A stretch of DNA of 64,000 nucleotides from Jonesia denitrificans DSM 20603 (GTDB lineage Bacteria; Actinomycetota; Actinomycetes; Actinomycetales; Cellulomonadaceae): contig NC_013174.1 of NCBI RefSeq assembly GCF_000024065.1, positions 1,984,001-2,048,000 of the forward strand, given 5' to 3'. This document shows positions 57,408 to 63,575 of the stretch, in pieces. Numbering within the stretch: the stretch's first letter is position 1; every line of letters starts with the position of its first letter. The notes under the pieces were generated by a model that was given only the letters and a program-made list of their open reading frames with translations, searched no databases and was not told where the DNA came from. Position numbers and translations under genes: made by a program.

Positions 57408-57527
57408 GTCACTCCTTGACGTCAACGTATTGTAGCCGGGCAAAAAACTACCCCTTTACAACTCCTCCACCGCATAATTCCCGGACATGCGGGCATTGTC
57501 CTGCCGTTCATTCTAGGATTGACTACC

Positions 57528-58703
57528 GTGACGACGTCGAAACCACCCGCACGACCCCCACTCGCGCATGCCCCCCAACGGCACCCGCGAGTCGTCCTGC
57601 GCACACTCAGCCTCCTCCTTGTCGGGGCTGTGGCCTTTGGCGCCTCTGCAACATACGCAGGGATGCAACGTGTCAAAGGGCTCGTGAAAACCGAAAGCGT
57701 CGAAGAACTTGTCGCACCACCAGCAACTCCCCCGGAAGATTCAGAAGCGGGGAACTCCCTCAACATTCTGGTCATGGGGTCTGACAAACGTGTCGATGGC
57801 TCTGTTGCAGGCATGCGTTCAGACACGACAATGGTTGTGCACATCTCGGAGAACCGAGACCGGATTGAAGTCATTTCCATCCCCCGCGATTCGATGGTCT
57901 ACATTCCCGAGTGCAAAACAAGTAATGGCACCGTACTTCCGGCGATCAACCGAGCAATATTCAACTCTGCTTTCGCCCGGGGGTGGGACAACGGGCTTGA
58001 CATTGCATCCGCTGCTGCGTGTTCGATTAACACTGTTCAACAAAACACTGGTTTGCGGATTGATCACTACGTTGTTGTCGATTTTGAGGGGTACACCGGT
58101 ATGGTGGACGCCCTTGGTGGTATCGAGATTGACATCCCTGAAGCAGTGGACGCCCCGAAAGCAGACAACCTGGTGTTGGAAGCTGGACCCCAAACCCTCA
58201 CAGGACACCAAGCATTATCACTTGTTCGGGCACGAAAAGGGACAGGTTGGGGCCTTGAAATGGGTTCTGACCTCAAACGTATTGAACGACAACAAGCAGT
58301 CCTTGACGCGACTGCTGAGACAGTTTTCAAACAAAATATCCTCACCGACCTGAACAAACTCACCCAGTTCGCTACGGCAGGCATGTCCTCCTTGACGATG
58401 AACCCACAGTTGTCAGACAACATGATTGGTCTCGCCACGTCCATGTCGTCTCTCAAGACCGAGAACATTCACTTTATTGCTGTTCCTGTTGCAGACGATC
58501 CAGCTGACCGCAACCGTGTGGTGTGGACAACGGAAGCAACCCCTATGTGGGAAAAACTTGCCCGAGATGAGCCTCTTGTTGAACCGGTAGAGTGTGACCC
58601 TGCCCAAGCGGACACCGCCGAAGGTGATGCCGCCACAGATGACAGTTCCGACTGTGTCCCCGCAGGTTCGGATACTGACTCCACAGGAACCACAGAGAAC
58701 TGA
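57528..58703 (+). CDS. LytR-CpsA-Psr (LCP) family protein 1
   Basis: A 391-residue membrane-anchored LCP protein. After a short cytosolic start there is one span (about 25-45, TLSLLLVGAVAFGASATYAG), then the LCP domain: NILVMGSDKR, GMRSDTTMVVHIS, ISIPRDSMVYIP and LDATAETVF. LCP enzymes transfer lipid-linked teichoic acids or other glycopolymers onto peptidoglycan. The extracellular end is acidic with Cys in VECDPAQAD and DDSSDCVPAG. GTG 57528 is preferred over TTG 57519 because AGGA lies 9 bases before it. It is followed 11 bases later by a second LCP gene. Confidence 0.9.
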   Translation: MTTSKPPARPPLAHAPQRHPRVVLRTLSLLLVGAVAFGASATYAGMQRVKGLVKTESVEELVAPPATPPEDSEAGNSLNILVMGSDKRVDGSVAGMRSDTTMVVHISENRDRIEVISIPRDSMVYIPECKTSNGTVLPAINRAIFNSAFARGWDNGLDIASAAACSINTVQQNTGLRIDHYVVVDFEGYTGMVDALGGIEIDIPEAVDAPKADNLVLEAGPQTLTGHQALSLVRARKGTGWGLEMGSDLKRIERQQAVLDATAETVFKQNILTDLNKLTQFATAGMSSLTMNPQLSDNMIGLATSMSSLKTENIHFIAVPVADDPADRNRVVWTTEATPMWEKLARDEPLVEPVECDPAQADTAEGDAATDDSSDCVPAGSDTDSTGTTEN

Positions 58704-58714
58704 TCGGTGATCAT

Positions 58715-60160
58715 GTGAACTCAGACAACCCCCACCGTCGCCGCAATCAAGAGTCGTCGCTGCCCCCGAGTTTCACACCTTCTGGTTCGCGCCCTGACCG
58801 ACCGCGGCGCACAACCGCAATCGAAGTGGGTAGTCAAGACAACCCTGTCACGCCCATGCCGGCAGGCTCAGAACATGACGTTGCACCACCACCATCGCGC
58901 CGCCCCGTGCAACGGATTTCGGGACCCAACCGCACAACACCTCCCGATGCACGCGCTGTTCCTGTCGTCCCACGCGAGCATCATGCACCAATAGATGACC
59001 ACCTGGGCGCGTCAACACCTGCAGCTGCTAGCGCTGTTCCACGTACGTATGCTCCACAGTCACACTCATCACGTCCCCATGCGGGCAGTTCGATGCCGCG
59101 CACAACCCCTGCGCCGCCAACTGGACCACGCGTCAGCCAACGCCCCACATCACCGCACTCAAGGCCGTCTAACCCTTCATCGCTGAGTGAACGTCAAGGA
59201 CACTCCGCTGGTTCTGCGCGAACAACTCGGCGCCGTCCTGTCGCACGCATCATTGCGGTCCTGGTTCTTGTTGCCCTTGTTGCCTGGCCTGTTGGTTTGG
59301 TCATGTGGGCAAATGGGAAGCTTAACCGGGTCGAGGCCCTGTCTGGTGCACCCAACACTCCTGGGGATACCTACCTGATTGCCGGCTCAGACTCCCGTGA
59401 GGGGACCGACATAGGGGGTGACGCCCCCGGTGCCCGCACGGACACTATTATGCTGCTCCACGCCCCTGAGGACGGTCCAACGGCGCTCATTTCATTGCCG
59501 CGTGACATCTATGTGGCAATCCCTGGGCATGATTCCTCAAAAATCAATGCTGCGTACTCATGGGGCGGGGCACCTCTCCTTGTCGACACAGTGGAGGAGC
59601 TCACCGGACTCACTGTGGACCATTACGTTGAGGTGGGTTTTAGCGGTGTACAGGGCATTGTTGACGCCGTGGGCGGTGTTGAGTTGTGTTATGACCGGGA
59701 CGTGCAGGACAAAGAGTCCCGTCTCGATTGGACCGCGGGTTGCCACATGGCTGACGGGGACCAAGCCCTGGCGTTTGCACGGATGCGTAAAGCCGACCCC
59801 CTCGGAGATATTGGGCGTGCTGAGCGCCAACGCCAAGTGGTGTCTGCTGTTGCCACCTCACTCCAAGACCCAGCCAAGCTCATCAACCCGGCAACTCAAA
59901 CGAAGCTCATTAATGCCGGAACCGGGGCGGTGGTGGTTGACGAGCAGTCAGGGGTCACAGACCTTGGGAAACTCGCCTTAGCTTTCCGGAACGCCAACTC
60001 CGATTCAGGGATCACCGGTACGCCACCCATTGAGTCCCTGGATTACCGTCCAGGCGGCGTAGGGTCAGCGGTCAAGCTCGACGACGAAGGCACTGTCCGG
60101 TTCTTCGCTGACATTGCCACCGGTTCACTTGCACCTGGCGAATACAACGGCTTAGATTAG
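58715..60160 (+). CDS. LytR-CpsA-Psr (LCP) family protein 2
   Basis: A 481-residue LCP protein. The first 165 residues are cytosolic, Pro/Ser/Arg-rich and likely disordered. One span is at about 172-194 (VARIIAVLVLVALVAWPVGL), followed by an LCP domain: YLIAGSDSREGTDIGG, ARTDTIMLLHAP, ISLPRDIYVAIPG, SKINAAYSWGGAPLLVDTVE and ALAFARMRK. Cys in CYDRDVQD and GCHMADG could form a disulphide. It probably shares the operon and job of LCP 1. The GTG start follows 11 bases after the LCP 1 stop. Its stop is 4 bases from converging purE. Confidence 0.9.
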   Translation: MNSDNPHRRRNQESSLPPSFTPSGSRPDRPRRTTAIEVGSQDNPVTPMPAGSEHDVAPPPSRRPVQRISGPNRTTPPDARAVPVVPREHHAPIDDHLGASTPAAASAVPRTYAPQSHSSRPHAGSSMPRTTPAPPTGPRVSQRPTSPHSRPSNPSSLSERQGHSAGSARTTRRRPVARIIAVLVLVALVAWPVGLVMWANGKLNRVEALSGAPNTPGDTYLIAGSDSREGTDIGGDAPGARTDTIMLLHAPEDGPTALISLPRDIYVAIPGHDSSKINAAYSWGGAPLLVDTVEELTGLTVDHYVEVGFSGVQGIVDAVGGVELCYDRDVQDKESRLDWTAGCHMADGDQALAFARMRKADPLGDIGRAERQRQVVSAVATSLQDPAKLINPATQTKLINAGTGAVVVDEQSGVTDLGKLALAFRNANSDSGITGTPPIESLDYRPGGVGSAVKLDDEGTVRFFADIATGSLAPGEYNGLD

Positions 60161-60683: not shown

Positions 60684-61873
60684 GAGTTGTCCTTTGTGTG
60701 TGGTGGGCTTATGTCCTCGCCGCGAAGGAGTGCGGCGGCTTCACGGGCATGGGCAAGAACATCGTCGAGGTCGTGTCCACTCATTGTGACATGACCGAGT
60801 TTGCGCCCCGGACGAACTTCTTTTCCGTAGATATTGACCTTCGCCTGAGGAAAGGCACGGAGCACTTCTGGAAGCGCATCAGTGAGTGTGGGTAGCTGGG
60901 ACCCCAAGACGTTAGCCATGACAGTCCACGGAGCTATTGGCGATGTGTCGCCCAGCGGGAGATCCGCCACAGCACGCAGGTGCTGTTCAAACTGGCTTGT
61001 CACAGCCCCTGTGATCGTCCAATGTCCGGAGTTGTGCGGGCGCATCGCCAGTTCATTGATGACGATACGGGGTTGGCCAGTGGACGGGTCAACGACGTCA
61101 AACAGTTCCACGGCGAGCACACCGGTGACATCAAGTTCTTCTGCCACACGGATTGCGAGTTGTTGAATCTCAGCATGTTGCGTGTCGGTGAGCCCTGGTG
61201 CCGGCGCGATGACCTCGGAGCACACCCCGTCGCGTTGAATGGACTCCACGATGGGCCAGGCAGCGACCTGTCCAGACGGGTTGCGGGCCACAAGCGCCGA
61301 TAATTCACGGGTGAAGAGAACCTTCTCTTCGAGAAGGAGTTCAGGACCTCCTTCCTGAGCTGCTACGAGCCAGTCATCGAGGTCGGTTGAGGTATCAATG
61401 ACGCGGACGCCTTTACCGTCATACCCACCACGTGCGGTCTTGGCGATCACCTCGGGGCCATGAGCGGCCAGGAAGGAAGAAATCACCGAGTGTGCGGAAT
61501 CATCACAAGGGATACGAACCCACGCTGGGCAGGGAAACCCGGAACTCGAGAGCCGGTCACGCATGAGGATTTTGTCCTGTGCAAAAGCAAGAGCATGAGG
61601 CCCTGGGTGGACGGACACGCCGCTATCGATCAGTTCACGCAACAGATCGTGCGGGACGTGTTCATGTTCAAACGTCAACACATCAGCCCCAGCGACTAGG
61701 GTACGGACTGCGTCGCGATCAGTGGCTGCCCCCACTGGGGCATCCACAACAACCTGTGCCGCGCTCGATTGCGCTGATTCAACAAGAACCTTGAGGCTGA
61801 CCCCCAATTCCGATGCAGGAGGAACCATCATCCGGGCGAGTTGTCCGCCACCAATCACAGAAATTATTGCCAC
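60680..61873 (-). CDS. purK: N5-carboxyaminoimidazole ribonucleotide synthetase
   Basis: A 397-residue ATP-grasp enzyme that carboxylates AIR with bicarbonate and ATP. N-terminal [21 protein letters not shown]-grasp [19 protein letters not shown], and metal-binding [19 protein letters not shown] with [18 protein letters not shown]. It is the first gene of the purK-purE operon. In related genomes purK commonly follows a GtrA-family gene; here a secreted hydrolase gene lies between them. Confidence 0.96.
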
Positions 61874-61937
61874 GTCTCACCAGCCTAGCCGAACGGTTCG
61901 CCAGGTTTCGCATCGTGGGATTCTGACCCTGACGCGG

Positions 61938-61965
61938 TGCGGTCACCACAGGTGTGGCAACCGCA
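61938..61965 (-). terminator. Imperfect inverted repeat, possible terminator of the hydrolase gene
   Basis: TGCGGT (61938-61943) pairs with ACCGCA (61960-61965), and inside it CCACA pairs with TGTGG, separated by a small internal mismatch. It lies 11 bases past the hydrolase stop. There is no T-run, so strength is uncertain. Confidence 0.4.
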
Positions 61966-61975
61966 CCATCAGGTG

Positions 61976-62827
61976 CTATTGCAGCCGGTAGTCGGACACG
62001 CCTGAGGCGTATCCCACCGCGGGCCCAGGGTTGAGGAACTGGTCATAGCGATCATCGTTGTCCAGGTATCGCTTCATCCAGGCGATACTGTACTTCGCAA
62101 TTGTGGTGTTGCTGACGTTCGGAGCAAAGTGGCTTGCGCCACGGAGTTCAAGGTAGCCACGTTGTTCCGCCTGAGTGAGGGACTCATAGAACGGGATGGA
62201 ATGGGTGCGGACTGACGCGACGGTATCGCGTTCAGCACCGATGATGAGCGTCGCAGCATCGACGCCATCCCAATTCTTCTTCAGGTTCCATGGCGTCAAG
62301 GCAACAACAGCATCGATCTCTGGGCGGCTTTCAGCGGCCTGGAGTGCGCCGCCCCCACCCATGGAGTGACCCATCACGGCTTGTCGTTCTGGGTCAATCA
62401 GTGGCCCTACAACTGAGTCGTTCATGGCGTGATCGAGGGCCGCAAGCAGTTGGGTAGAGCGTTGGCGCGGCTGGTCATAGCGGGTGGTGGTGTTGATGGT
62501 GACCACAACAAATCCGAACGAGGCGATGCGTGAACCGAGCCAGGCGATGCTCGATTCCCCAGCGGTGTATCCCGGGGAGATAGCGATCACGCCGAATTTT
62601 CCGTCCGATGTGTCTGTCGGGTAATAGATCGTTCCGTTGCGGAATCCATCTGAACTGAAGCGGCTGATTGACCGTTGTGCGATGTCGTAATTTCCACGTC
62701 GTTGTTCGATCAAGGATTCGCTTGGGTTAGGGCCACGTTCGTAGGGGGTGTCCGCCGCATGAGCGACGCTGCCAGTAGGAATGACCAGGAGCGCCAGAGT
62801 GACACAAAGAGCCAGGATTCGTCTCAC
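61976..62827 (-). CDS. Secreted cutinase/polyester (PET) hydrolase-like enzyme
   Basis: A 283-residue alpha/beta hydrolase with signal peptide 1-24 (LALLVIPTGSVAHA). It closely resembles the Thermobifida cutinase/PET-hydrolase family by memory of conserved segments: YERGPNPSES, GTIYYPTDTSDGKFG, VIAISPGYTAGESSIAWLGS. Catalytic Ser155 sits in GHSMGGGGALQ, Asp201 in IIGAERDTVA and His233 in GASHFAPNVS. The oxyanion Tyr87 and Trp180 (LTPWNLKKNW) of the aromatic clamp are present. The family's C-terminal disulphide is missing; the mature protein has no Cys. GTG 62827 has GAAAGGAC about 6 bases upstream. It may hydrolyse cutin, esters or polyesters; substrate is unproven. Confidence 0.88.
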   Translation of the reverse strand: MRRILALCVTLALLVIPTGSVAHAADTPYERGPNPSESLIEQRRGNYDIAQRSISRFSSDGFRNGTIYYPTDTSDGKFGVIAISPGYTAGESSIAWLGSRIASFGFVVVTINTTTRYDQPRQRSTQLLAALDHAMNDSVVGPLIDPERQAVMGHSMGGGGALQAAESRPEIDAVVALTPWNLKKNWDGVDAATLIIGAERDTVASVRTHSIPFYESLTQAEQRGYLELRGASHFAPNVSNTTIAKYSIAWMKRYLDNDDRYDQFLNPGPAVGYASGVSDYRLQ

Positions 62828-63086
62828 GTGAGTGTCCTTTCGGATCGGTGTGGGGAGCACACGGAGGCGCACTATGACGCCTGATTTGTGTGTTCTCACA
62901 TAGTGGAGAAAGAAACGGTGCCTCACGATGGGCACGTCTCACCTCACCACGTGATTCCGACGCTTGGCGCGAGCACAACGGGTGGCAAAACGTTTCATCG
63001 CAGCAGCAGCCCGGGTGAAACCCCAGTTCACCGCGGCGTCCACGGGGAGGAGAGCTTTCACCTCCCGCGGACACACAAGAATGGCA

Positions 63087-63092
63087 TAGGCT
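63087..63092 (+). promoter_or_regulatory. Possible leaderless promoter -10 (TAGGCT)
   Basis: TAGGCT ends 7 bases before the G of the GTG at 63099, the spacing for a leaderless message. No ribosome site fits that start. A GTG at 63093 would lie against this element. Confidence 0.35.
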
Positions 63093-63098
63093 GTGGAG

Positions 63099-63575
63099 GT
63101 GTTGTTACAGACGTCACAGACCCAGCGAACAATTGCATCGCGGTGTGCAGAGCTTGTCCGATTCGGGAGCGTTGGTGCTCTCGGATTCGTCGTTGACATT
63201 GGTCTCTTCAATGTCCTTCAGTACGGACCTTTATCCCTACTTGACGGAAAACCTGTCACGGCAAAAATCATTTCGGTATCGATCGCCATGGTGGTGACGT
63301 GGCTGGGAAACCGACTATGGACCTTTTCTGCGCAACGCACACACACCCGAGTACGAGAATTTACCGGCTTCGTTGTTGTCAACATTGGTGGAATGGCCAT
63401 CGCTGTGCTGTGCCTGTGGGTTTCACGCTACATTTTGGGGTTTGAGTCCGCGTGGGCGGACAACGTGGCAGCAAACGGTGTAGGGCTCGTGCTGGGCACT
63501 GCGTTTCGCTACGTTGCGTATAAATACCTAGTCTTTACCGGCCAGCAACCCACACTTGGGTTGGCACAACGCTAG
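63099..63575 (+). CDS. GtrA family membrane protein
   Basis: A protein of 158-160 residues with four spans (VRFGSVGALGFVVDIGLFNV, IISVSIAMVVTWLGNRLWTF, GFVVVNIGGMAIAVLCLWVS, NGVGLVLGTAFRYVAYKYLV). The closing FRYVAYKYLVF is the GtrA signature. GtrA proteins help move undecaprenyl- or lipid-linked sugars across the membrane, so it fits the envelope theme. GTG 63093 or 63099 are both possible; I chose 63099 because of the upstream TAGGCT. It is divergent from the hydrolase gene and converges on the kinase gene. Confidence 0.85.
   Translation: MLLQTSQTQRTIASRCAELVRFGSVGALGFVVDIGLFNVLQYGPLSLLDGKPVTAKIISVSIAMVVTWLGNRLWTFSAQRTHTRVREFTGFVVVNIGGMAIAVLCLWVSRYILGFESAWADNVAANGVGLVLGTAFRYVAYKYLVFTGQQPTLGLAQR

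Follow-up and report, generated by a model that had tools for sequence, protein, structure and literature searches.

The window analysed here, a stretch of 64,000 nucleotides from Jonesia denitrificans DSM 20603 (NC_013174.1, positions 1,984,001 to 2,048,000; the genome, 2,749,646 bases in length, is a single contig), includes a gene for a putative secreted esterase located between purK/purE and a GtrA-type gene. Features of the gene are listed in Table 1. The open reading frame was found where the original prediction had placed it; its strand, which had not been given, is the minus strand, and the plus strand of the same interval includes six stop codons. AAAGGA is present upstream of the GTG start with a spacing of 7 nt. 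The reading frame is judged from its sequence to be real and not a chance one, because it matches the PF12740 profile with an E-value of 1.3e-104 and because J. quinghaiensis has, at the same place, an orthologue with 86% identity in the mature chain.

Table 1. Features of the esterase gene, with positions in the window.
Feature	Position	Strand	Remarks
Disulphide-free PET-hydrolase-family (PF12740) putative secreted esterase	61976..62827	(-)	283 aa + stop, GTG start
Signal peptide, residues 1-24, cut expected after AHA	62756..62827	(-)	by eye from translation
GHSMG nucleophile elbow, residues 153-157, including Ser155	62357..62371	(-)	numbered translation
Catalytic Asp201	62225..62227	(-)	Asp in 145/145 rows among the matches listed
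Catalytic His233	62129..62131	(-)	His in 145/145 rows among the matches listed
Asn266, first-cysteine site of the C-terminal disulphide	62030..62032	(-)	site is Cys in 125/145 rows among the matches listed
Leu282-Gln283-stop; second cysteine would come next	61976..61984	(-)	aliphatic at 282 in 18/18 clade rows

The signal peptide was assigned by eye as VRRILALCVTLALLVIPTGSVAHA, with A as the first residue after the cut. This residue, number 25, is also the position at which matches to the solved structures 9HYD (SM14est) and 9KMF (dsPETase01) begin. The sole cysteine of the protein, C8, lies within the signal peptide, leaving the mature chain without cysteine. Residues of interest, in the numbering of the esterase, are Y87, H154, S155, M156, W180, D201, V203, H233 and F234. 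The signal peptide, the Ser155-Asp201-His233 triad, GHSMG, Tyr87, Trp180 and the cysteine-free mature chain claimed in the original prediction were all recovered from the translation, the residues at the same numbering.

The J. quinghaiensis orthologue is also located between GtrA and purK, and the contig with the 83% match to the esterase in that species is 508,625 bases long. Gene order around the esterase is shared by the two species, save that in J. quinghaiensis two genes with a mycothiol maleylpyruvate isomerase N-terminal domain (L002:2545-3844) separate GtrA from the esterase; no such pair is present between these genes in the window. Tandem LytR-CpsA-Psr genes (window positions 57519-60160) beside purE/purK are kept in J. 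quinghaiensis. The neighbours of the esterase gene in the window are purine-synthesis, LytR-CpsA-Psr and GtrA genes, none of them tied to polyester use, which suggests no shared pathway. A search of 61800-63200 for sigma-70-type promoters gave no match, and in the window as a whole neither a tRNA nor an Rfam match at gathering thresholds is present. A search for partners in PET catabolism gave no match to the tannase/MHETase family in the J. denitrificans genome, but none in any of 14 control genomes either, so that this negative does not demonstrate absence; one carboxylesterase match fell below the cut-off.

The match to PF12740 (349.7 bits against a cut-off of 28) covers positions 2-259 of the 263 in the profile and is therefore a full-length match above the curated score; the Ser-Asp-His triad and Gly-x-Ser-x-Gly elbow of the family are represented by S155, D201, H233 and GHSMG. 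The dienelactone hydrolase profile PF01738 gives 20.1 bits (E 5.2e-4), below its cut-off of 21. A stretch of 39 residues (144-182) passes the cut-off of the PAF-acetylhydrolase profile PF03403 (21.2 against 20 bits, E 1.2e-4), as expected because the elbow is common to both families. The score with NF051441, the equivalog for the bis(hydroxyethyl) terephthalate hydrolase BdeA, is 413.2 bits, below the cut-off of 520, which is likewise missed by the relatives L021, L020, L070 and L003.

For comparison of individual residues, 153 open frames from 148 loci gave 143 distinct sequences, which together with 9HYD and 9KMF make 145 rows; the loci are the best 30 or fewer matches per search, and the set leans to near relatives. 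Among these listed matches, Ser155, Asp201, His233, His154, Met156 and Trp180 are invariant (145/145), and position 87 is Tyr in 98 rows and Phe in 47. The original prediction had also drawn attention to Val203 at a site where Thermobifida-type enzymes have Ile. This difference carries no weight, as Val is found in 78, Ile in 59 and Thr in 8 of the 145 rows among the matches listed, and Val is present in MtCut as well.

Type I PET hydrolases in the scheme of Joo et al., as described in PMC9039725 and PMC13396203, include one C-terminal disulphide, and it is stated that they typically melt at >70 °C (PMC13396203). The esterase has the His at position x1 of the elbow (H154) and the Tyr/Trp clamp (Y87, W180) of type I and lacks the disulphide, since Asn266 replaces the first cysteine, the chain ends at residue 283 and the mature chain has no cysteine. 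The loop extension of type II is absent, as judged by the ungapped alignment with 9HYD over residues 25-282 and not by comparison with IsPETase. Type III PETases are described as having a Gly-His-Ser-Gln-Gly elbow, Thr in place of Tyr87, Tyr in place of Trp180, and two disulphides (PMC13396203); the esterase, with GHSMG, Y87, W180 and no cysteine, differs at each of these points.

The AlphaFold model of the esterase, built from 24 aligned sequences, has a mean pLDDT of 93.7. PET hydrolases and cutinases rank first in the fold search, where the model overlays 9KMF with Z 47.1 and an rmsd of 0.8 Å over 258 residues, and 9HYD with Z 45.4 and an rmsd of 1.4 Å over 259 residues; other PET hydrolases and the Thermobifida cutinases tie with 9HYD at Z ~45. 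The overlay on known structures that had been proposed as a check thus supports the assignment. A cleft devoid of the aromatic clamp had been named as contrary evidence, and the clamp residues, Tyr87 and Trp180, are present in the sequence.

The nearest solved relative is SM14est (PETaseSM14; PDB 9HYD) of Streptomyces sp. SM14, which is 75% identical over the mature chain. It shares the triad, GHSMG and the Tyr, Met and Trp residues with the esterase, its aligned part is cysteine-free, and its C-terminal end is SDYRL. Differences include Ile for Val203, Asp for Asn at the first-cysteine site and a pI (up to residue 266) of 6.7, compared with 5.4 for the esterase. SM14est hydrolyses PET, and according to PMC10213408 it lacks a disulphide bridge. 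Its PET hydrolysis is reported to rise with NaCl (PMC10213408, PMC12117601), and catalysis by PETaseSM14, whose structure was solved at 1.43 Å, reportedly requires NaCl (PMC12117601). The Tm is about 55-56 °C (PMC10213408, PMC12117601), with 56.26 °C given in the latter paper. Of the two enzymes, salt dependence and PET activity were measured for SM14est only. The second disulphide-free enzyme with a solved structure, dsPETase01, is 66% identical to the esterase and has no cysteine; it is nearer to L070-L073 of family f45 (78-80% identity), and no paper was found under its name or entry code in the open-licence literature. MtCut of Marinactinospora thermotolerans (PDB 7QJO and 8XHO; 61-62% identical) shares with the esterase the stretch DTVASVRTHSIPFYESL that includes Val203, but keeps both C-terminal cysteines (L003). 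Thermobifida cutinases, e.g. 4CG1, have the same fold at 54-56% identity and, unlike the esterase, one C-terminal disulphide, which is stated for TfCut2 and Cut190 in PMC9039725.

Given these data, the gene product very probably belongs to the actinobacterial cutinase/PET-hydrolase family as a secreted serine esterase, a statement that applies to family and mechanism as predicted from the sequence. The protein would cross the cell membrane and lose its signal peptide after AHA, and the mature chain would fold as a lidless alpha/beta hydrolase. By homology, Ser155, activated by His233 and Asp201, would attack ester bonds in substrate chains bound in a shallow groove on the surface, flanked by Tyr87 and Trp180, and the oxyanion hole would be formed by the main-chain amides of Tyr87 and Met156. 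Plant polyesters (cutin, suberin) and other lipid esters are the most likely natural substrates, an assignment much less sure than that of family and mechanism; PET, BHET and PCL would be cleaved through their resemblance to these.

An alternative, though a somewhat unlikely one, keeps family and chemistry and differs in substrate only: the esterase would be a general lipase or a short-chain carboxylesterase that serves to cleave acylglycerols or small esters, and polymers would be attacked little or not at all. The Streptomyces exfoliatus lipase 1jfr falls in the same fold group, and the gene neighbours are silent on polyesters. Against this stands the 75% identity to SM14est, for which PET hydrolysis has been demonstrated and whose cleft residues differ only in Ile where the esterase has Val203. 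A polymer-active enzyme would also agree with the report of 2024 on Jonesia sp. PET4, an isolate from beach PET that clears BHET agar, described as a first for the genus, with no gene named (PMC11000645); BHET is, however, a small ester, and its degradation fits a lipase as well. That the protein is a dienelactone hydrolase, or another alpha/beta hydrolase unrelated to cutinases, is extremely improbable and in effect refuted, as the weak PF01738 match stands against that to PF12740 and a fold search headed by PET hydrolases and cutinases, and the esterase groups with SM14est and 9KMF in a tree built without dienelactone hydrolases. Placement with dienelactone hydrolases had been the other contrary evidence named originally, and neither of the two was borne out.

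Both C-terminal cysteines are present in 125 of the 145 rows among the matches listed and neither in 20; one alone was never found. Within the family of J. denitrificans itself, 44 of 221 genomes have a match, with 48 matches in total, and among 31 of these 48 four are cysteine-free, namely the window gene, two copies in J. quinghaiensis, and L038. A tree was built from 53 rows with the C-terminal columns removed; every one of the 20 cysteine-free rows was included, together with 33 representatives (<78% identity) of the remaining 125. In this tree, 18 of the 20 cysteine-free rows form one clade with support of 100/98, with the reservation that the bootstrap was not fully settled and L015 is a long branch. 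The clade consists of the query, both J. quinghaiensis copies, SM14est, 9KMF and 13 rows of family f45, and the three Jonesia rows are grouped with SM14est at 100/100. The esterase therefore has the marks of the SM14est-like clade, i.e. placement within it, no cysteine and a chain end after YR[ILV]x, and the disulphide-free branch suspected originally does exist.

The free tree needs three changes for cysteine loss and places L082 and L038 apart from the main clade. Three independent losses were not accepted, as a single clade of all 20 rows was not rejected (p-AU 0.52) and had a slightly higher likelihood; one to three origins are compatible with these trees. The ends of L082:1489-2262 and L038:1567-2340 are SGY and SGL, with Trp replacing the Tyr of SDYR, and they are not shortened like those of the clade. 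A tree holding together 14 rows from the family of J. denitrificans was rejected (p-AU 1.7e-19), but these rows represent several lineages and not Jonesia alone, and transfer into Jonesia is not claimed.

In the clade, the first-cysteine site is occupied by Ser, Thr, Ala, Asn or Asp, and the C-terminus S[DA]YR[ILV] is kept throughout. Tyr-Arg-(Ile/Leu/Val)-x forms the end of the chain in 9KMF and in each of the 16 clade rows obtained from DNA; the match to 9HYD stops at Leu, with one further residue of the 9HYD chain unseen. Hence, a recent local accident in one strain, whether a mutation or a sequencing error at the 3'-end, is scarcely credible and in effect refuted despite the absence of both cysteines from only 20 of the 145 rows among the matches listed, as the loss is common to the J. 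quinghaiensis orthologue and second copy, the 13 f45 rows and two solved enzymes, all with the kept C-terminus.

The residue two positions before the lost second cysteine is aliphatic in 18/18 clade rows (Ile in 11, Leu in 6 and Val in 1). At the same position, all 125 disulphide rows among the matches listed have Gly, Ser, Asp, Asn, Thr or Ala, and none has Ile, Leu or Val. The aliphatic residue in the 18 rows is probably the result of one evolutionary event and not of 18, and therefore the correlation of 18/18 with 0/125 alone proves nothing. As far as sequence comparison goes, the pattern suggests that an aliphatic cap stands in for the cystine: the first cysteine is replaced in the SM14est/dsPETase01 clade, the chain stops at the place of the second, and Leu282 would help to hold the last strand instead of the disulphide. 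The aliphatic residue at 282 is possibly a new detail, as no statement of an aliphatic C-terminal residue was found in the literature passages on disulphide-free relatives. A broader proposal, put forward tentatively and rather doubtful, would set SM14est, dsPETase01 and the Jonesia enzymes apart as a disulphide-free subtype of their own. A single ancestral step would have exchanged the C-terminal cystine for aliphatic 282 (Ile/Leu/Val), which packs the last strand, and the Jonesia gene would be the source of the BHET activity reported in the genus. If true, this would be a natural, redox-independent closure of the C-terminus linked to moderate-temperature, salt-tolerant polyester hydrolysis.

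Two other features were considered and rejected. The calcium site of Thermobifida enzymes is formed by D174, D204 and E253, and D204R in TfCut2 is reported to raise the melting point to the calcium-stabilised level (PMC4856421). The equivalents in the esterase, located by constant offset from His208, are E199, R229 and S278. R229 as a compensation by the clade for the lost disulphide was rejected, since Arg is found in 77 of the 145 rows among the matches listed, 61 of which have both cysteines. A halophilic charge signature was also rejected. For chains up to residue 266, the mean pI is 6.16 in the 18 clade rows and 6.18 in the 125 disulphide rows, with mean net charges of -2.5 and -4.8, respectively; hence the clade is not specially acidic.

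The disulphide-free state has already been published for SM14est, and the branch is thus not new. The original interpretation is right in outline, and 'mesophilic, disulphide-free branch' would be a fair label for a group with a characterised member, where 'mesophilic' is borrowed from the Tm of SM14est and the thermal properties of the esterase are inferred. The esterase is an ordinary addition of small novelty that widens a small, partly characterised group of disulphide-free enzymes in the PET-hydrolase family. Such enzymes could fold in reducing hosts, e.g. the E. coli cytoplasm. The gene, or its family, is also a candidate for the BHET trait of Jonesia, the PET4 isolate having a genome different from the one analysed here. 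The value is practical, and no principle is altered. Among open-licence papers, searches for Jonesia with PET hydrolase, cutinase or polyester gave nothing on the esterase gene.

Relatives of the esterase were found in 5 of 72,556 plasmid records, the best at 57%. The second cysteine-free copy in J. quinghaiensis (L021:1576-2349) is 81% identical to SM14est, which comes from a sponge Streptomyces. In 295 sampled genomes of what is presumed to be the genus Streptomyces, 121 of them with a match at E 1e-40, no match exceeded 62% identity. Because of this difference, the Streptomyces host of SM14est may have acquired the gene from a Jonesia-like donor. Directly upstream of the second copy, on the same strand, lies a gene for a GH53 galactanase with a signal-like N-terminus (L021:203-1276), an arrangement that fits feeding on plant material.
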